From the NCBI GenBank assembly GCA_003963115.1, contig RXJQ01000022.1:62001-126000 (forward strand): DNA of 64,000 nt. The letters run 5' to 3'. Position numbers and translations under genes: made by a program. Source of the DNA: Burkholderiales bacterium (GTDB lineage Bacteria; Pseudomonadota; Gammaproteobacteria; Burkholderiales; Burkholderiaceae_C). The number at the start of each line of letters is the position of its first letter. Position 1 is the stretch's first letter. This document shows, piece after piece, positions 54,306 to 64,000 of the stretch. Below the pieces are notes generated by a model. It saw only the letters and a list, made by a program, of their open reading frames with translations. It was not told the origin of the DNA and did not search any database.

Positions 54306-55901
54306 TCAGTGCGCGGCCTCGGCGGCCTTCTCAGGGTGCCAGTCGATGCACTGCACCTGATTGCGCCCGGCCTCCTTGGCGGCATACAGGCCCTGGTCGG
54401 CCCGCTCGATCAGCAGCAAGGCATTGTTGGCATTGCCCTTGCCCAATTGCGCCACCCCGAAGCTGGAGGTGATGCGCAGATTGGGCACGGCGTCCACGGC
54501 CGGGCCGGCGGTCTTCTCGATCGCATCGCGGATGCGCTCGGCCACCTCGGCCGCCCCCTGTTCGTCCAGGCCGGGCATGAAGGCGCAGAACTCCTCGCCA
54601 CCGTAACGACACAGCACGTCCTGCGGACGCATGGCCGTCTTGAGGATCTTGGCCACCTGCTGGATCACCAGGTCACCCACGGCATGGCCATAGGTGTCGT
54701 TGAAGGATTTGAACTTGTCGATGTCGGTCATGAAGCAGGTCAGCGGCTCACCCGTCTTCAAGGCATGTTCCAGCATGGGCTCGGCCCGGCTGAAGAAGGC
54801 ACGGCGGTTGAAGCAGCCGGTCATCGGGTCGCAGTTGGCAAGCAATTGCAACTCTTCGTTTTGCTTTTGGATCTTGTCGCGCGACAACTCCAGCTCGACC
54901 ATCGCCGAACGCAGTTGGCTATTGGCCTGGTCAAGCTCGGTCACGTCATCGAGGGTGACAAGGCAACCTCGGGCATTGCCAGCGGCATCTCGCACGGCTG
55001 CGCAGTTGAGCAAGGCGCGCCTGGGCTCACCGCCATCATGGCTGAGGTCGACCTGCACACCCAGGATCGGCTCGGTGGTCTGCAGCGCACGCTCCCATGG
55101 GCGTTGCACGTCTTCTTCCTTCAGGCCCTTGATCAGCCAGTCCAGTTGCGTGATGGCGCGGCCCAGCAGCACACCAGAGGCCTGCGGGTGAAAGCCCCGA
55201 AAGGCCGAATTGGCCATCAGGATCTGGCCATCGATGTCCAGCACCAGCAAGCCTTCGGTCAGCGTGTCGAATGCCACGCGCACCCGCTCCGGGATCGCCT
55301 TGGACGGATCCAGATGTTGCAACACGCGACGCAGGTACAAATAAAACGCCACGAAGCATGCCACGCTCAACGTGCCGATGAGCTGGACAGTGGGGTTCTT
55401 CAACCAACCCGCCAGCGAATTCGGCCAGGGCGAGCGAAAGCCCACTTCGAGCTGCCCCCAGCGTTGCTCGCCTGCATTGAGCGGCACCACCACGGCATTG
55501 ATCGTGGAAGACCCCAGCGGAGGCGCTTCCCAGGTTTGATCATGATGAGGCGAGGCCGCGTACAACACGCCCGATGATCGCCTGACCGCCAGCGAGGTGA
55601 TGTCACCGCTTTGTTCGACCAGCTCGACCAGCACATTCTGCAGATGCGCAGCGTCCTGGGTCTCATTGAGCATGCGGCGAACCTGCACGGCCAGGTGAAC
55701 GGACACCTGCTCGCGCACGTCCATGGTCACGGCGCGCTGGTCGGGCAATATCTTGAGGATCAGGTCCAGGATCATCAACAAGCCTAGCAGCATGGACACC
55801 AGCCCCATGGCAATGCGCACGGTCGGGCTGGGCGCCCAGCGTTTGAGGCCCGTGACAAGCGATGGATTGGCCGAGGCCTTTGCCTGGGTCGCCTGGGCCA
55901 T
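54306..55901 (-). CDS. Membrane-anchored diguanylate cyclase (sensor + PAS + GGDEF)
   Basis: NCDPMTGCFNRRAFF...YGGEEFCAFMPG GGDEF domain; PAS-like FDTLTEGLLVLDIDGQILMANSAFRGF; N-terminal and central TM segments. Confidence 0.93.
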   Translation of the reverse strand: MAQATQAKASANPSLVTGLKRWAPSPTVRIAMGLVSMLLGLLMILDLILKILPDQRAVTMDVREQVSVHLAVQVRRMLNETQDAAHLQNVLVELVEQSGDITSLAVRRSSGVLYAASPHHDQTWEAPPLGSSTINAVVVPLNAGEQRWGQLEVGFRSPWPNSLAGWLKNPTVQLIGTLSVACFVAFYLYLRRVLQHLDPSKAIPERVRVAFDTLTEGLLVLDIDGQILMANSAFRGFHPQASGVLLGRAITQLDWLIKGLKEEDVQRPWERALQTTEPILGVQVDLSHDGGEPRRALLNCAAVRDAAGNARGCLVTLDDVTELDQANSQLRSAMVELELSRDKIQKQNEELQLLANCDPMTGCFNRRAFFSRAEPMLEHALKTGEPLTCFMTDIDKFKSFNDTYGHAVGDLVIQQVAKILKTAMRPQDVLCRYGGEEFCAFMPGLDEQGAAEVAERIRDAIEKTAGPAVDAVPNLRITSSFGVAQLGKGNANNALLLIERADQGLYAAKEAGRNQVQCIDWHPEKAAEAAH

Positions 55902-55931
55902 GTGGGCGTGCCTGCCGTTGAAGCCCGCTGT

Positions 55932-57278
55932 TCAGCGGACGCTGGCCAGACGCATGCCACCCACGGGGGAAGTGGCGAGGTCCACGCCCGGCTTGCGGCG
56001 CGCGTCAGCGATGACAGGCTGATTGCTCATCACTGCGTCATGGCGACCCAGAGAAGGCATCTGCATGGACAGAGCCAGGGTAGTCTGCGCGCGCAACATG
56101 GGTGGCAACAGGGGCTTCTTGCTGCTCATGCGAACAGCCGTGTCGGATGCCGCGATCCAGCGATTGCCAGGCGATGTCTTGCCCAGTTCAGCCATGGCGA
56201 GTTTCAGCGTCGACGACACGAAACGGGCTGGCGACAAGGCATGAGGCAGTGTGCTCACGGGTGCGTTCATCGGCGCCGAAACCGTCACCAAACTGCCACG
56301 CGTGCCCGACACGCCGGGCTGCCAGGCGGGTGCCTGCAAAGGCGCTTGAGGCCAGCGTGTCGGCGCCACCTGGCCCGCAGCCGAAGGCGGTGGCGTCACC
56401 GACACGGGAGCGGTGGTCGAGCCGCTGGTATCGGCAGCGCCGAACGCGATGCGGCAGCGCACACCCGACGGGATGCGATTGCCAGGGTTGGGCATGCTCA
56501 GCCGGACCCGGAAGCTGTTGGAAGCGGGGTCGATCACGCGGTCGACCAGGGTCACCTTGGCCGACAACACGGCGTAATCTGGCAGGTCCGTCTTGACCGT
56601 CGCCAATTGGCCGGACGAGATGGTGCCGAACTGCGCCGCAGGCACGATGGCCTCGATGCGCAGCGGGTCAATGCGGGCCACGCGGACCACAGGCTCGCGC
56701 TCGATGCGTTCACCTTCCGTGCGATAGCGCTCCACCACCAGGCCTGCGAAGGGGCTGCGCACCTCACGCTGGCTCAACTGGGCGTTGGAGAGATGGAATT
56801 CCTTTTGCGCGACGCGCTGTGCTTCACGGGCCTGCTCCACGCGTTGCTGAGCCACGCGGGCCTCGGCTTCGGCCTGGTCCAGCGCCTGGTCGGACACGAA
56901 ATCGCGCTTGACCAGATCGCGTGTGCGTTCGAGCTTGCGCTGCGCCAGGTCACTGGCCGCAATCGCCTGCTGGGTTTCCGCATCGGCCTTGGCCTTGATT
57001 TCCGCCACGGATACCGAGGCCTTCTCGACCTGTGCGGACAGCCTGGCCACGACCTGGCCGGCCGTCACCACATCGCCACGCTCGACCGTCAGCTTCTCGA
57101 TCACGCCTGTCGATTGGCTGCCCACATCCGCCACGCGATCGGGCTCAATCAGGCAACCCAGCACATCCGCATGGCTACAACCCCACCAGGACAGGCTGGT
57201 GGCGGTTATCACGCTCAACGCTTTTTTGTTCACTTGGATGCTCCTGCTCGACCACGCTGAGCAAGCCTTGACGCCCAT
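55932..57278 (-). CDS. Efflux RND/HlyD-type periplasmic adaptor with long Pro/Ser/Ala-rich C-terminal extension
   Basis: VGSQSTGVIEKLTVERGDVVTAGQVVARL...VRSPFAGLVVERYRTEGERI...; C-terminal ~170 aa low complexity. True start may be 57233 (MQVNKKAL). Confidence 0.85.
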   Translation of the reverse strand: MGVKACSAWSSRSIQVNKKALSVITATSLSWWGCSHADVLGCLIEPDRVADVGSQSTGVIEKLTVERGDVVTAGQVVARLSAQVEKASVSVAEIKAKADAETQQAIAASDLAQRKLERTRDLVKRDFVSDQALDQAEAEARVAQQRVEQAREAQRVAQKEFHLSNAQLSQREVRSPFAGLVVERYRTEGERIEREPVVRVARIDPLRIEAIVPAAQFGTISSGQLATVKTDLPDYAVLSAKVTLVDRVIDPASNSFRVRLSMPNPGNRIPSGVRCRIAFGAADTSGSTTAPVSVTPPPSAAGQVAPTRWPQAPLQAPAWQPGVSGTRGSLVTVSAPMNAPVSTLPHALSPARFVSSTLKLAMAELGKTSPGNRWIAASDTAVRMSSKKPLLPPMLRAQTTLALSMQMPSLGRHDAVMSNQPVIADARRKPGVDLATSPVGGMRLASVR

Positions 57279-57342
57279 CGTGCACTTAAGCGGGATGATG
57301 TCCGCACCTCGGCTAACGCGATCCGTGAAAAAGCCACGCTTG

Positions 57343-59349
57343 TCAGTCCCAGTCTTCTCTTCCGGCCATGGCCAGCTGCCGTGCCATCACCATGTCGGTG
57401 ATCAGCATCTGCCAGCGGTGGCGGCGTGAGCGCGCCTCGGCCTCCAGCTGGACCTTGCGGCAAGCGCGCTCAACCAGCCAGCGCCCGCCGATGCCCGTCT
57501 TGGCCCAACGAACGAGCCGTTTCAGGCCGCCCGAGGTGGCCAATTCCGCCCAGCAGCTGTCTTCCCAGCTCAGGATCGTTTCGCAGCTGCCGGGCATGCC
57601 CTGCCGCGCGCTGCGTCCGATCAGTTGCCGGTCGATGCGCCTGGAGCGGTTCAGGTTGGTGTTGATGACGTGCAGACCGCCGTTGGCCGCGGCTTCCTTG
57701 GACAAGTGCACATCGGTGCCCCGTCCCGCCATGTGGGTGGCCACCGTGATGCAACCCGCTTGTCCAGCCTTGGCGATGACCTCTTGCTCCTGCTGCCCCA
57801 GGGCTTCATCCTGTCGGGCATTGAGCACCTGATGCGGCAACCCATTGACGCTCAAGGCACGCGAGATCGCATCCGAATCGGCCACCGTGTCAGTCCCGAT
57901 CAGCACAGGCCGCCCTTGCTTGACATGCAGACGCGCCTGTTCGACCACACGCGTCCATTTATCAGCGGTGGTGTCCAGCACCTGCGTGCCGAGCACCTGG
58001 CGCCTCGATGGCACGCGCAGCGGAACACGGCACGTTGTCAGACCGTAGACGCGCAACATCTCGGCGCGGTCCTCGAAGATGGTGCCGCTCAGGCCCGCGA
58101 GCCGCAGGTAGCGCGGGAACAAGGACTGGTAGGTGGCCTGCGTGAGCGTTTCGTTCTCGGGCTGCGGCGGCACGCCTTCCTTGATCGCGATCATCTGGTG
58201 CAGGCCGCGCGACCACGACCGCCCCACAGCCAAGCGACCGGTGGTGTCGTCAATGATGTGGATGCCCTCATCACGCACGAGGTAGTGCACGTCCTTGCGA
58301 AACACATGCAGCGCCTGCAAGGCACAGCTCACCTGCTCGTGGCGATAGCGCCGCCAGCGCCAGGCCCCTTGCATGGAGGCGCCCAGTTCGGCCAGCCGGT
58401 TCTGCCCGGCCTCGGTCAAGCGCACCTGCATGCCTTCGTTGCAAACGTAGTCCTGCCCGACCTTGAGCTGACGCGCCAGGAACAAGGCCAGGCGATAGCG
58501 TTGGTCGGCCTCGCGCAGATCGACGGCGCGGGCCAGGATCAAGGGCGTGCAGGCTTCGTCGATCAGGATGCTGTCCACCTCGTCGACCACGGCCATGCAC
58601 AGGCCTCTGAGCACAATGCCATCCTCGTCGCCCACCGTGCGCGCGGCGCGGTCACGCAGGTGATCGAACGCCACCTCCTTGGCCGTCACGTGGACCACAT
58701 CGGCCTGGTAGGCCTGCTTGCGCTCCTGTGGCGTGCTGGTAGCCGTCACGTAGGCCACGCTCAGGCCCAGGGCGCCATAGATGGGTTGCAGTTCTTCTGC
58801 GTCACGACGCGCCAGGTAGTCATTGGCCGTCAGCACGTGAACCGGGATGCCTGCCAGCGCCGCCGTGGCCGATGTCAACAGCACGGTCAGCGTCTTGCCC
58901 TCGCCTGTGGCCATCTCGGCCAGGCGCTGGCCCAACATCCACCAGCCCGCCAGCAATTGAACATCATGCAACTGGAACCCACGCTGTTCGCGTACCAGTT
59001 GCGCAATCAGGCCAAAGCACGCTGCCACCTGATCTGGCGCGAAGCCGCTGCCCAGCCTGACCCGCATGGCCGCCAGATGCCTGGCACGTTCAGCATCAGG
59101 CAAGCCAACCCAGGCTGCCTGAGCCTGTTGCACCAGGGTCAGAAAGCGCTTGTTCTGGCGCGCAGACGGCTGCGGTGCCGCGCGCCACCACGCCTGCAGC
59201 CAGGCGATGAAGGGACTGTGCGAACGCATCGCCGCGTCTTTCAGCGGATAGCCACCATGAACAGGCCCCGGCCGAGGCACAGTCGATCCCGAGCCCATGC
59301 GCTCCGTCCAGAAGCCCGGATCATTGAAATGCGGCGTGAAGGTTTTCAT
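57343..59349 (-). CDS. SecA-like ATPase (short accessory SecA paralogue)
   Basis: MATGEGKTLTVLLTSATAALAG (Walker A), VDEVDSILIDEACTPLILA (DEAD), THMAGRGTDVHLS, SRRIDRQLIGRSARQGMPGS. 668 aa, no SEC-C zinc motif. Confidence 0.9.
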   Translation of the reverse strand: MKTFTPHFNDPGFWTERMGSGSTVPRPGPVHGGYPLKDAAMRSHSPFIAWLQAWWRAAPQPSARQNKRFLTLVQQAQAAWVGLPDAERARHLAAMRVRLGSGFAPDQVAACFGLIAQLVREQRGFQLHDVQLLAGWWMLGQRLAEMATGEGKTLTVLLTSATAALAGIPVHVLTANDYLARRDAEELQPIYGALGLSVAYVTATSTPQERKQAYQADVVHVTAKEVAFDHLRDRAARTVGDEDGIVLRGLCMAVVDEVDSILIDEACTPLILARAVDLREADQRYRLALFLARQLKVGQDYVCNEGMQVRLTEAGQNRLAELGASMQGAWRWRRYRHEQVSCALQALHVFRKDVHYLVRDEGIHIIDDTTGRLAVGRSWSRGLHQMIAIKEGVPPQPENETLTQATYQSLFPRYLRLAGLSGTIFEDRAEMLRVYGLTTCRVPLRVPSRRQVLGTQVLDTTADKWTRVVEQARLHVKQGRPVLIGTDTVADSDAISRALSVNGLPHQVLNARQDEALGQQEQEVIAKAGQAGCITVATHMAGRGTDVHLSKEAAANGGLHVINTNLNRSRRIDRQLIGRSARQGMPGSCETILSWEDSCWAELATSGGLKRLVRWAKTGIGGRWLVERACRKVQLEAEARSRRHRWQMLITDMVMARQLAMAGREDWD

Positions 59350-61511
59350 GCACCCCTCACATCGGAGAAATGCTTGAGGAACAGCTGACGCAGGCGCAAG
59401 CCCCAGGTTTGCAGCAAGGGCCTCGGCGTCAACTCCAGCTTGACCTTGGCCAGCCCACCGGCCCGAGGAATGCGCTCGTCGAGCACCACGTCCACCATGA
59501 AGGTGGGTTCCGCGGGCTTGATGCCATCGGTGTCGGTGGGCTCCACCGGCACGGGGCCGCCTTGCTTGTTGCTCAGCGCGGCCGAGGGCAGCTTGTCGAT
59601 GGCGGCGGGTGCCTCACCCGAAGGCTTGCCCTTCAACGCTTTGCCTGGCCGCTCAGACAGCATCACGGTCACACCCTTGAGGCGCTCCTTGACATCTTCG
59701 ATGTCCCGCTGGGAGATGACCGCACGCACAACCGTCGGCACGTCTGACATCACATAGGCCAGCAGTTGCCCCCGGCTGACCTGGCGCTGGTCGATGTCTT
59801 CCTGCCTGGACAGCACGAACTCGCCGGGCTGCACGGCCCTCAGAACCTGTCCCGCCAGATCCTCGTCGACCTTGCCCAGTTGCGCATAGTCGCGGTTGAG
59901 CGCCTGCTGGGCATTGCTGACCTTGAGCGGGTCTATGCCAAAAGCACCGTTGAGTTCGGCACGCGTGCCATCGATCTGCGACATCAGGATGGCACGCTGC
60001 GTCAGCAACACGGGGTCCTTCAGCCTGATCAAAGCCTGCCCCCGCACCACGCGTTGCCCGCTTCGCACCAGCACGGCGTCGACCTCGGCATCGCTGGTCG
60101 CGCGCACCTGCGCGTCGGGTGGCAGCCAGACCACGCCATCGGCCACCACCGAGGCCGGCACCGGCACCAAGGCCAGCATCGCCAAAGCCCCGGCCGCGGC
60201 CACGCCACCGCCCCACAAGGCCTTGGTACGCACCGACTCGAAGCCGGCCGCCATTTGCAGGTTGTTCCCCCAGTTGCGGCAAGGTTGCAGCACCAGGCTC
60301 CACACCATCCAGGCCAGGATACCCATGCCCAGCCAGGAGGCCTTCTCTGCTGCCCAGCTGACCATCACCCAGCTGACCGTCAGCCGGTAGCCCCACGAGG
60401 CCGGCGAGTACAGACGCAGCACCCAGCGCTCCAGCGCATCGTGTTCTGATGGCGCGCGTGGCTCCACAGGCATGCGCAGCAGACGCGCCACCAGCCCTTG
60501 CCACATGCGTTCATTGGCCAGCGTGCTGCGCTGAGCCAGGTTGGGCAGATCCAGCACATCGCAAGCCACGAAATAGCCATCGAACTTCATCAGCGGGTTG
60601 CCATTGAACAGCAGCGTGGAGAGCCCACCCACCGTCATCAAGGTGAAGGCCAGCTCACGCACCAGCCCGTCTTCCACGGCCAGCCACAACCCCAGCCCCA
60701 GTACCGCCAGCGTCATTTCCACCATGATGCCCGCCGATGCCACCAGCCCCCGGTGCGCGCGGCTTGTCAGCCGGTTGGACGCCGAAGCATCCACGTACGG
60801 CATGGGCACGAACATGAAGAAGTTGATGCCGACCTCCGGCACCTCGCAACCAAAGCGCCTGAGCATCAGGGCGTGGCCAAGCTCGTGCACGCCCTTCATC
60901 AGCGGGTACAGGACCCACACCATGGCCAAAAAGCGAGGCGTCAGGAAATGGGCCTGGCCATAGATGCGGATGTCTGGCCAGTTGAACCAGATGCCCAGCA
61001 TGCCGGCCAGCATCAGCACCATCCAGGCCATCAAGGTCTGCACCTTGAAGAGGCCACGAATACGGGGGTACAGCGTTTCCAGCAGGGCCGATGGATTGAA
61101 CAAACCCAGCCTGAAGGACAAAGGATTGAGCCGCGTGCGCTTTTCCTTGCGCTGGCGCTCCTCGCCCACATGCAGGATCTGGCGCACATCCGGTGTGACC
61201 TCGGCCTGCACCAGACCCGCATCGGTCAGCTGTCCCAGAATGCGGATCACATCGTTCTGGCTCGGCGCGGCGTCACCCTGCCGGTTCAGCAGCGACTGCC
61301 AGATCTCGTCCACCGTCAAGCGGCCATCCAGCCGCCCGACCAACTCGAACGCCTGCGCATTGACACGGTGATGTCGCCCCGTGGCCTGGTTGTGCAGCAC
61401 ATACCAGGCTTGCCCGCGGGTGCGCTGCATGCGCACGCTGACATGGGCACGCAGGCGCGGATGCAAGCGCGCGATGCGATACCAGTAGGGGGACAGCAAG
61501 GTCTCTTGCAT
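59346..61511 (-). CDS. PqqD-like + M50 (site-2 protease-like) + HlyD adaptor fusion membrane protein
   Basis: N-terminal PqqD-like wHTH (HRVNAQAFELVGRLDGRLTVDEIWQSLL...ILGQLTDAGLVQ), HELGHALMLRRFG zinc motif, NPLMKFDGYF second S2P motif, C-terminal biotinyl-lipoyl/HlyD segment. ATGA overlap with the SecA-like gene. Confidence 0.87.
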   Translation of the reverse strand: MQETLLSPYWYRIARLHPRLRAHVSVRMQRTRGQAWYVLHNQATGRHHRVNAQAFELVGRLDGRLTVDEIWQSLLNRQGDAAPSQNDVIRILGQLTDAGLVQAEVTPDVRQILHVGEERQRKEKRTRLNPLSFRLGLFNPSALLETLYPRIRGLFKVQTLMAWMVLMLAGMLGIWFNWPDIRIYGQAHFLTPRFLAMVWVLYPLMKGVHELGHALMLRRFGCEVPEVGINFFMFVPMPYVDASASNRLTSRAHRGLVASAGIMVEMTLAVLGLGLWLAVEDGLVRELAFTLMTVGGLSTLLFNGNPLMKFDGYFVACDVLDLPNLAQRSTLANERMWQGLVARLLRMPVEPRAPSEHDALERWVLRLYSPASWGYRLTVSWVMVSWAAEKASWLGMGILAWMVWSLVLQPCRNWGNNLQMAAGFESVRTKALWGGGVAAAGALAMLALVPVPASVVADGVVWLPPDAQVRATSDAEVDAVLVRSGQRVVRGQALIRLKDPVLLTQRAILMSQIDGTRAELNGAFGIDPLKVSNAQQALNRDYAQLGKVDEDLAGQVLRAVQPGEFVLSRQEDIDQRQVSRGQLLAYVMSDVPTVVRAVISQRDIEDVKERLKGVTVMLSERPGKALKGKPSGEAPAAIDKLPSAALSNKQGGPVPVEPTDTDGIKPAEPTFMVDVVLDERIPRAGGLAKVKLELTPRPLLQTWGLRLRQLFLKHFSDVRGA

Positions 61512-61525
61512 GCTTCACCCTGGGC

Positions 61526-63058
61526 TTAGAGGAAGGTCCAGGCCTGCATGCTGAGCCATTGCCAGACACGGTCGGCCGCGCGCCACAGCAGCGGCCGGGG
61601 CGGCATGTCGATGCGTGCCACACCCTGCAAGCCGGGCCGCAAGCCCCTCGCACCCGCGCCGGCCCCGGTGGGGATGGCCTCGATCTCATAGCGCACGCCA
61701 TTGGGCGTCGTCTTGGCCACGGGCGTCACGCGGTTGAGCGTCAAACCAATGGTCTGATCAGGCATGGCTGCCAGACGCAGCCGGGCAATCTGGCCATTGT
61801 TGAGGCTGGCGATGTCGCTTTCGTCCACCTCCAGCACCACGCGCCAATCGAGGCCAGGCGCCAGCGTCAGCAGGTTGTCGCCGCGTTTGACAGGTGCACC
61901 CAATTGCTGGCGCAAATCACCCGCGATGACCACGCCATCAAAAGGCGCGATGATCTTCAAGCGCGCCAACTGCTGCTGGAGCAGCGAGATCTGGGCCTTG
62001 GCCTCGTTGAGCTTGGACTGCGCGATCACCGCCTGTGCGCGGTCACCCCGTGCAAAGGCCTCGGCAAAACCATTCTCGTGCTGTGCCGCCTCGGCCGTAC
62101 GGGCTCGCAGAGCACTTTGCAGGTCGTCATCGGAGAGCTCGGCCAAAACCTGGCCAGCCTGCACCAGGTCACCGGCATGTACATGCGCTTCCCGCAGGAA
62201 GCCGTCCTGGGGGGCACTCATCACACGCTGCACCGCACCCTCCAGCCGCGCCGTGGCCGTCACCTGGTATGGCAAAGGCAGCCCGATGCCAAAGGACATG
62301 ATGCCGAAGAGGGCCAGCACGGACCAACGCAAGGTCCGCTCACGCGGATCCGCCAGCCGCACGCGCAGCGACTCCAGCCAGCCGCGCCCTCGCTCATACC
62401 ATGGCTGCTCCAGTCGGTAGCGCAGGTCCAGCGCCGGCGCCATCAGCCCGGCCAGTTTGGCGACCCAGCGCAACTCGGCCTCGCTGAATCCGCGTGAGCC
62501 CTGCTGTTGATCCAGAGACAGCGGCCTCAGGGCGTCCACATGGCTGGTACGCTCCAGGGTCAAGGTGCCCACCACCACACCCCCCTGAGCCAAGGGCACG
62601 GTCAGCAGGCCGGAAAGCCCCTGCACACGGCACAAGGTCTGGTGGGCCATGGTGATGGCATGGGCTTGCGTGGCCTGCGGCTTGGCAGGCTGGGGCCAGC
62701 TCAACGTGGTCTGCTGGTGTGCGGCTTCCAGCATGGCCTGATGCAGCTCAGGCAGGGCCACACCCTCCTCCAGCAGCACGCCATCAGACAGCACGCGCAG
62801 CCGCAGCGACTGCCCGCTGACCCACCCCAGCGCCACGCGGTGGCACTTCATTTGCTGGTTGAGCAAGGTCACGAAGGCTACAGCCCCCGCTGTCCAGTCC
62901 TTCTCCATCAGAAAAGCCTGCAGGCAGGCCACCGCCGCCGCATCATCTTGCACGGCGACTGCCTGTTGCTGAGACTTGGGCGAGCCCTCGGCCGACGCCC
63001 CTGCCTGGGCCGGCATCGGCTCAAGCATCTTGGGACGAGGGGTAACAATGGTGCTCAA
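61526..63058 (-). CDS. GAF-like domain + HlyD-type membrane adaptor
   Basis: N-terminal cytosolic GAF-like region (FVTLLNQQMKCHRVALGWVSG...GLLTVPLAQGGVVVGTLTLERT), one TM, then HlyD core (VMSAPQDGFLREAHVHAGDLVQAGQVLAEL...KIIAPFDGVVIAGDLRQQLGAPVKRGDNLLTLAP). Confidence 0.85.
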   Translation of the reverse strand: MSTIVTPRPKMLEPMPAQAGASAEGSPKSQQQAVAVQDDAAAVACLQAFLMEKDWTAGAVAFVTLLNQQMKCHRVALGWVSGQSLRLRVLSDGVLLEEGVALPELHQAMLEAAHQQTTLSWPQPAKPQATQAHAITMAHQTLCRVQGLSGLLTVPLAQGGVVVGTLTLERTSHVDALRPLSLDQQQGSRGFSEAELRWVAKLAGLMAPALDLRYRLEQPWYERGRGWLESLRVRLADPRERTLRWSVLALFGIMSFGIGLPLPYQVTATARLEGAVQRVMSAPQDGFLREAHVHAGDLVQAGQVLAELSDDDLQSALRARTAEAAQHENGFAEAFARGDRAQAVIAQSKLNEAKAQISLLQQQLARLKIIAPFDGVVIAGDLRQQLGAPVKRGDNLLTLAPGLDWRVVLEVDESDIASLNNGQIARLRLAAMPDQTIGLTLNRVTPVAKTTPNGVRYEIEAIPTGAGAGARGLRPGLQGVARIDMPPRPLLWRAADRVWQWLSMQAWTFL

Positions 63059-63230
63059 GGCGACGGTCCTGGTTCACACACATGGGGGTGTCGGGGCTTT
63101 TTTACCCGGCTTGCCCCTATGATCTGAAAATCTCAAGCGGCCAATACCTCGAAAAACGGAGAAAGTTCACGCCTTGACGCCTGTTCTGGCTGTCGCGTGA
63201 CGGCCCCACACCACGAATCAGGAGTCATTC

Positions 63231-63977
63231 ATGAAGGTTTTGCTGATCGACGACCACCCCTTGATCCTGGCAGCCTTGCAATCGGTCATCCAGGGTCTGG
63301 GCGACAACGTGACCGTGGCAGCGGCAGACAGCGGCCGGGCTGCCCGTGAAACCCTGCGTCAGGACTCCAGCTACGACCTCGTCCTGCTCGATTTGCACCT
63401 GGGCGACGCCGACGGCTTCGATCTCCTCAGCGAGCTGCGCACCAAATACCCCGCCCTGCCCGTGGTCGTGATTTCCGCTTCCGACCGCACCAGCGACGTC
63501 ATCCGCGCCATCGACATGGGCGCCATGGGCTTCGTGCCCAAGCGCGCCACCAACGAAACCCTCTTCGAGGCGCTCCAGCAGGTGATGTCCGGCGGCGTGT
63601 ACGTCCCGCCCATGAGCATGGGCGCCGACCACCAGCCCCAGCTCAGCGGCTCGCCTCATATCCAGCAGGTGCAGCGCGAGGCCTCGGAAGCCGCCTACCA
63701 GACCATGCCCTCGCTGATGCAGCTGGGCCTCACCCCCCGCCAATCCGATGTGCTCAACCTGCTGCTCAAGGGCCAGCCCAACAAGCTGATCGCGCGCGAA
63801 CTGGGCCTGTCGGTCGAAACCGTCAAGGACCACGTGGCCGCCGTGCTGCGCGCGCTGGGCGTGAGCTCGCGCACCCAGGCGGTGATTGCTGTCAGCCAGA
63901 TCCTGCAAAGGCAAAGTGGCGGGCAAGGTGGCGGCACGCCCAGCGGCTCCACCTACTCCGGCTGGCGCCCGCGCTGA
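63231..63977 (+). CDS. LuxR/NarL-type response regulator
   Basis: REC (MKVLLIDDHPLILAALQSVIQGL...LVLLDLHLGDADG) plus LuxR HTH (LTPRQSDVLNLLLKGQPNKLIARELGLSVETVKDHVAAVLRALGV). Confidence 0.95.
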   Translation: MKVLLIDDHPLILAALQSVIQGLGDNVTVAAADSGRAARETLRQDSSYDLVLLDLHLGDADGFDLLSELRTKYPALPVVVISASDRTSDVIRAIDMGAMGFVPKRATNETLFEALQQVMSGGVYVPPMSMGADHQPQLSGSPHIQQVQREASEAAYQTMPSLMQLGLTPRQSDVLNLLLKGQPNKLIARELGLSVETVKDHVAAVLRALGVSSRTQAVIAVSQILQRQSGGQGGGTPSGSTYSGWRPR

Positions 63978-64000
63978 GCGCCCACCTGAACCTGGATGAC

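Follow-up and report, generated by a model that had tools for sequence, protein, structure and literature searches.

A SecA-like/M50-HlyD cassette of a Burkholderiales bacterium and its association with giant LEPR-XLL proteins, the probable export substrates

In 2015, Kamneva, Poudel and Ward described a conserved locus encoding a secondary SecA_DEAD protein together with Peptidase_M50-HlyD, GAF-HlyD and HlyD proteins (PMC4452313). SecA was proposed there to be the motor and M50 the pore, the SecA-like proteins formed one clade separate from canonical SecA, and the role of the locus was termed "completely unknown". A title search of the open-access literature brought up one later paper and no experimental follow-up. 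We report on a locus in the genome of a Burkholderiales bacterium (5.38 Mb, 108 contigs), situated in a stretch of 64,000 nucleotides, hereafter the window (contig C71, positions 62001-126000); its nearest named relatives are Aquabacterium. This locus belongs to the kind described by Kamneva et al., and we consider it probable (about 0.62) that it exports and processes giant cadherin/Ig-repeat proteins with a LEPR-XLL tag and usually a DUF4347 domain. The genes concerned are the following:

61526..63058, minus strand: GAF-HlyD protein, 510 amino acids (aa) (Pfam HlyD_3 67 bits; GAF_2 20.5 bits, below cut-off)
59346..61511, minus strand: PqqD-M50-HlyD protein, 721 aa (PqqD 28 bits, cut-off 23.4; M50 24.6 bits, cut-off 27.2; weak HlyD stretch)
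57343..59349, minus strand: short SecA-like ATPase, 668 aa (SecA_DEAD 249 bits, with preprotein cross-linking and P-loop domains)
55932..57278, minus strand: RND-type periplasmic adaptor, 448 aa (RND_mfp 129 bits, cut-off 94.9)
54306..55901, minus strand: PAS-GGDEF diguanylate cyclase with a GGEEF motif (GGDEF 154 bits, with PAS)
63231..63977, plus strand: divergent NarL/LuxR-type response regulator (Response_reg 93.7 bits, GerE 57.9 bits)
63996..64000, plus strand: start of a hybrid sensor histidine kinase running past the window edge (L004:5997-7850, 617 aa)

The first-pass annotation of the window had listed five minus-strand genes and a divergent LuxR gene, and all six open reading frames (ORFs) are present with the domains it named. 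The five genes are spaced by 14 bp, a 4-bp overlap, 64 bp and 30 bp, only the first distance having been given differently (15 bp). The kinase gene begins 18 bp past the end of the LuxR gene (window base 63996 is L004:5997), which makes the LuxR regulator one half of a two-component pair; the pair is also kept in L024, L108, L110, L112, L114, L116, L117 and L129. Promoter and terminator scans gave no signal clearly exceeding shuffles.

Compared to the 2015 locus, the window has a SecA_DEAD protein devoid of the wing-scaffold region, an adjacent M50-HlyD protein, a GAF-HlyD protein (with GAF below cut-off) and a further HlyD protein. These four core proteins, with their domains, come in the operon order of META1p2402-2399 in Methylobacterium extorquens AM1, and no ABC transporter was recognised among the translated neighbours of the window locus, as none is part of the 2015 locus. 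The window-type locus differs by the addition of the LuxR/hybrid-kinase pair and of a GGDEF gene in the slot that relatives use for the giant gene, whereas a substrate, the PqqD domain, the leader and the DUF4347 link are not named in the portions of the 2015 paper used here. The kind of locus is known though uncharacterised; new here are the link to a substrate and the proposal of a leader read by PqqD. The first-pass annotation had presented the system as poorly described. The 2015 paper takes part of this novelty away, since the locus and the channel idea were already there. The absence of an assigned role stands, and the association with giants lends the functional claim more weight; overall that proposal is partly supported. 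In the open-access literature, almost nothing was found on LEPR-XLL or DUF4347 in the setting of an export locus.

Other described systems resemble the locus in part. Type I secretion of RTX adhesins such as LapA and SiiE also concerns giant cadherin/Ig-repeat proteins and HlyD-type adaptors, and TolC-type proteins near some relatives of the cassette, as well as c-di-GMP genes close by, add to the likeness. However, the cassette has a SecA-type ATPase and an M50-HlyD protein, with no ABC exporter recognised beside it, and recognition seems to be N-terminal (LEPR-XLL) rather than C-terminal. In SecA2 accessory Sec systems, a second SecA is reserved for certain large surface proteins, but the SecA of the cassette is truncated (no wing, no two-helix finger), is accompanied by adaptors in Gram-negatives, and no SecY2 was seen. 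The daptide/epipeptide (YydH/LiaK) M50 metalloproteases of clusters for ribosomally synthesized and post-translationally modified peptides (RiPPs) share with our protein a PqqD-type domain and an intramembrane M50 domain in one chain. Here, in contrast, both domains are joined to a periplasmic HlyD adaptor, and the partner is a giant instead of a small precursor. The locus is not a SecA2 system and does not appear to be a canonical type I or RiPP system.

The presence of the cassette follows that of the giants. Strong M50-HlyD matches (at least 490 bits) were found in 16 of 21 genomes with LEPR-XLL proteins and in 6 of the 255 others in a class sample of 276 genomes (indicative p=4e-17). In a phylum sample of 349 genomes, near-independent as only four genomes are common to both, the proportions were 29/36 against 4/313 (indicative p=2e-31), and all 36 LEPR genomes have an M50-HlyD protein once divergent forms are counted. 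One of the four exceptions is the genome studied here, whose giants lie just under the whole-genome threshold; as this LEPR-8K threshold missed the genome's own two giants, the LEPR counts are lower bounds. Among 42 Aquabacterium genomes, 25 have both DUF4347 and the cassette, 16 have neither and one has the cassette only (indicative p=1e-10): the cassette is present in 25/25 genomes with DUF4347 and absent from 16 of the 17 without it, the lone exception being 81% complete. Physical linkage points the same way, with 32 of the 61 LEPR giants on the same contig as a strong M50 gene, 28 of them within 15 kb. Across 27 pairs of a cassette and its giant, M50, SecA and DUF4347 distances were also correlated (r=0.65 and 0.76, none of 10,000 permutations being as high). 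The LEPR-XLL giants are probably the export substrate of the cassette.

The same gene order was found in Aquabacterium, other Burkholderiales, Rhodobacteraceae, Azospirillum, Methyloglobulus, Accumulibacter, Thermodesulfovibrionia and Akkermansiaceae, with GAF-HlyD as the conserved first gene. Since it recurs in several phyla, the arrangement is not due to chance, and the conserved co-occurrence anticipated by the first-pass annotation, including a giant repeat protein near the cassette of relatives, was indeed found. The LEPR/DUF4347 giant is the next gene in most Aquabacterium cassettes, and a giant lies 3' of the adaptor or SecA gene in L005, L024-L026, L028-L030, L033, L103-L105, L107-L115 and others. 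The slot filled by the giant in L103, L105, L108, L110, L112 and L114 is taken by a GGDEF gene in L116, L117 and L129-L131. This is the arrangement of the window-type cassettes (the window, L116, L117, L129, L130, L131, L021 and the fragments L031/L037, apparently of genome G287), all of which have GGDEF in this slot where the locus is complete. The two-component and c-di-GMP control suggested earlier fits the gene content of window-type loci, but the diguanylate cyclase is not a core component: it sits in the slot that most relatives use for the giant gene. The gene content on the far side of the window (etfA, acyl-CoA dehydrogenase, nitronate monooxygenase, kinase, LuxR) recurs by synteny in L024, where the GGDEF slot nevertheless holds a giant in cis, so that the giant is probably the ancestral neighbour.

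Window-type cassettes have their giants elsewhere. An unlinked DUF4347 giant (L016, L123-L128) is present in this genome and in six of the seven window-type relatives, the only one without being G293, a genome 81% complete. The motif LEPRILFSA was seen in five of these seven giants, and tandem-GGDEF genes adjoin most of them (L016, L123, L125-L127). The genome studied here also has a paralogous cassette on contig C28 (L005), made of GAF-HlyD, PqqD-M50-HlyD, SecA-like and RND adaptor genes whose products are 34-44% identical to those of the window. The next gene, 13 bp further on, is an ORF that covers at least 1726 aa before the contig ends, with an N-terminal LEPR-XLL match (21.0 bits, LEPR-8K cut-off 17), then DUF4347 (179.5 bits) and cadherin domains. 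A second giant of like make-up (LEPR-8K 20.5 bits, cut-off 17) is isolated on contig C5, where a tandem-GGDEF gene diverges from it. We take this unlinked C5 giant to be the probable client of the window cassette, and the giant adjoining the C28 cassette to be that of the latter.

Variants of the cassette were also found. In L069, L072, L074, L086 and L087, GAF-HlyD, M50-HlyD, adaptor and LEPR giant genes occur without SecA, and two of the genomes with such cassettes, G184 and G165, have a single SecA match each. Copy numbers of SecA per genome are inflated by weak DEAD-type matches and were used only for such single-match genomes, local gene order being used otherwise. The dedicated SecA-like motor of the first-pass annotation is thus part of the conserved cassette but not universal, and these SecA-less cassettes limit the possible roles of SecA. 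A more distant form has M50-HlyD proteins of about 320-360 bits, often with a linked OEP/TolC-type gene. Four loci of this form (L094, L139, L140 and L099) carry a DUF4347 giant whose motif has diverged, for example to LEPRMMFDGA. Three of these giants, with motifs such as LEPRMMFDGA and LEQRYMFDGA, are located as follows:

L094:11191-17241: diverged-motif DUF4347 giant, OEP gene or fragment nearby
L139:3581-10429: diverged-motif DUF4347 giant, OEP gene or fragment nearby
L140:9809-17218: diverged-motif DUF4347 giant

OEP genes also lie beside some SecA-type cassettes (L070, L082, L043-L045, L106). The absence of TolC noted earlier holds near the window cassette but not for all relatives. No OEP/TolC-type gene was found on C71 or C28, and about two dozen OEP genes are present elsewhere in the genome. 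No RND pump or ABC exporter was recognised beside the cassette, and no ABC protein among the translated neighbours, Pfam having been run on only part of the flanking ORFs. In a separate observation, a DUF4347 giant directly adjoins an OEP/TolC-type gene at L142:2-6031, and the 10 kb covered contain no M50 gene.

The SecA-like protein retains nucleotide-binding domain 1, the preprotein cross-linking domain and nucleotide-binding domain 2, and its nucleotide-binding motifs are invariant. Against solved SecA structures, its profile aligns only as far as about residue 606 of the B. subtilis protein, which we take to be a loss of the wing and of the two-helix finger (the C-tail is also missing). 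The two-helix finger is the part inserted into SecY by canonical SecA. The protein scores below every full-length SecA/SecA2 cut-off (420/1085, 368/725, 348/930 and 321/1100 bits for SecA2), and it was rightly called non-canonical in the first pass. Of the three SecA-family genes in the genome, one is canonical, one lies in the window and one in the C28 cassette. Elsewhere, a canonical SecA match was seen inside a 24580-aa open frame (G040:C1:2262362), possibly a masked or unusual sequence.

The PqqD-M50-HlyD protein consists of an N-terminal PqqD domain of the peptide-recognition type, a multi-pass membrane domain of the M50 metalloprotease type and a C-terminal HlyD barrel and hairpin. Among 19 relatives, Pfam recognised PqqD in 17 and M50 in 18, and the residues of HExxH (H209, E210, H213) and of NxNP...D (N303, N305, P306, D311) are invariant in all 19. 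In the structure model (predicted local distance difference test score, pLDDT, 80.8), a PqqD-like N-terminus and a helical membrane domain are followed by a C-terminal part matching the MexA/MacA adaptors. Counting long helices in this model gives seven crossings, which would put PqqD on the cytosolic side and HlyD on the periplasmic side, but a hydropathy scan alone gives four segments, and the topology is uncertain. In GAF-HlyD, an N-terminal GAF-like domain is followed by one transmembrane segment (residues 245-263 approximately) and a periplasmic HlyD/barrel-sandwich adaptor.

The giants are cadherin/Ig-repeat surface proteins with open frames of 14,000-15,000 aa in several genomes. The longest frame seen with a LEPR-XLL match has 19427 aa (G368:C115:112865). 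The LEPR region is predicted to be disordered, and in the leaders inspected the best 12-residue mean hydropathy did not exceed 1.95. By this simple measure they have no strongly hydrophobic core and are not ordinary Sec signal peptides. In DUF4347, H144 and C187 are invariant in 8 sequences and follow the third and fourth core strands (136-142, 176-185); over a wider set, His occupies its column in 18/21 and Cys its own in 19/22. A PDB sequence search with DUF4347 gave nothing meaningful. The best-probability match of a fold search was Tce1 (probability 1.00, but E=0.0065), and caspases and legumain were among the best 50 (E above 0.001). Tce1 is PA0256, itself a DUF4347 protein, and has been reported as a putative cysteine protease (PMC13323088). 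These data are a weak but pointed indication that DUF4347 has a cysteine-protease fold (clan CD/CPD-type).

The data show the genetic association, the domain composition, the conservation of active-site residues and the absence of parts of SecA; from these we infer how export might proceed. The cytosolic PqqD-type domain of M50-HlyD could bind the LEPR-XLL leader, a tentative proposal that falls a little short of even odds. Where present, the SecA-like motor might thread the unfolded giant through the membrane domain of M50-HlyD or through SecYEG, two routes that are equally plausible and each rather unlikely taken singly. The HlyD parts and the adaptor may together build a conduit through the periplasm that ends at a TolC-type outer-membrane protein provided in trans, for which the chances seem balanced. 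Cleavage of the leader by M50 is possible, though we hold it as less likely than leader binding, and a cut of the giant in cis at the surface by DUF4347 is slightly more doubtful. The LuxR/kinase pair and c-di-GMP could, with about even chances, set expression or display.

Several points weigh against export of the giants by the cassette. Control or retention at the surface, instead of export, could account for the association, whose p values overstate independence because the sampled genomes are mutually related. The motor is not essential to the association, as SecA-less cassettes occur with the same giant. PqqD is taken as a leader reader by likeness to RiPP systems. The fold matches of DUF4347 each lie above E=0.001, and its model is confident only over residues 80-217 approximately. 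Finally, neither LEPR-XLL giant of this genome adjoins the window cassette. Presence patterns are what pairs it with the C5 giant, and DUF4347 distances neither mark the giants of LuxR-type cassettes as the closest kin of the C5 giant nor prove a specific pairing of trans giants with window-type cassettes.

The SecA-like protein might also be a specialised second SecA working with SecYEG, in which case M50-HlyD and HlyD would act only after translocation, cleaving the leader and guiding the product through the periplasm. In favour of this, it keeps the preprotein cross-linking domain and both nucleotide-binding domains, and in the single-match genomes G184 and G165 the housekeeping SecA/SecYEG could serve the SecA-less cassettes. 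We find it improbable all the same, given the loss of the wing and of the SecY-inserting finger, scores far under all SecA2 cut-offs, and leaders without a strong hydrophobic core. Somewhat less probable still is a cassette that senses (GAF, c-di-GMP) and cleaves or retains an adhesin exported otherwise, as LapD/LapG do on LapA, with M50 as a site-2-type regulatory protease. GAF and GGDEF domains, the invariant M50 active site and the tandem-GGDEF genes beside most trans giants are consistent with it, but most cassettes with a giant in cis lack GGDEF, and an ATPase motor with two or three adaptors seems excessive for a protease switch.

The top curated match of the M50 protein, with its PqqD domain, is the daptide metalloprotease model NF041824, as expected if the locus matured and exported a small precursor in the manner of daptide/epipeptide clusters. 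This is very unlikely: the 138 bits obtained are under the family cut-off of 300, the recurring partner is a giant protein, and the loci examined showed no recognisable modification enzyme, small peptide ORFs not having been searched for. An incomplete tripartite efflux or type I locus for small molecules has a negligible probability, for although HlyD and RND-type adaptor domains are present and TolC-type OEP genes lie beside some relatives, pump and ABC exporter are missing among the recognised neighbours, the SecA-type motor is conserved, and the cassette co-occurs with giants.

One further giant was noted 9 kb past the window, an ORF with 50 matches to an ALTTAQ repeat that runs into the contig end (L004:14995-19104, C71:134994-139103). 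Contigs C29, C40, C48 and C9 carry further ALTTAQ fragments, which points to repeat genes split by assembly. We set this giant aside as a substrate: unrelated metabolic genes lie in between, it has no LEPR-XLL match, and no ALTTAQ repeats were seen near any other cassette examined.

Export and processing of the LEPR-XLL giants by the cassette is thus our preferred reading. Its most ambitious form would be a distinct Gram-negative export machine, in which PqqD reads LEPR-XLL, a finger-less SecA threads proteins of up to about 15,000 residues through M50-HlyD without SecYEG or ABC protein, and a cysteine protease and M50 mature the product; in this complete form we consider it unlikely. No description of the export route of LEPR-XLL giants was found in the open-access literature. 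With the association reported here, a locus whose role was termed "completely unknown" in 2015 gains a specific, testable substrate, the LEPR-XLL giants, which are among the largest bacterial proteins. The association likewise suggests a function for the LEPR-XLL motif and what DUF4347 may do within giants. If true, it would provide a short N-terminal leader that can be put to the test and show how bacteria move proteins far larger than usual with a pared-down SecA.

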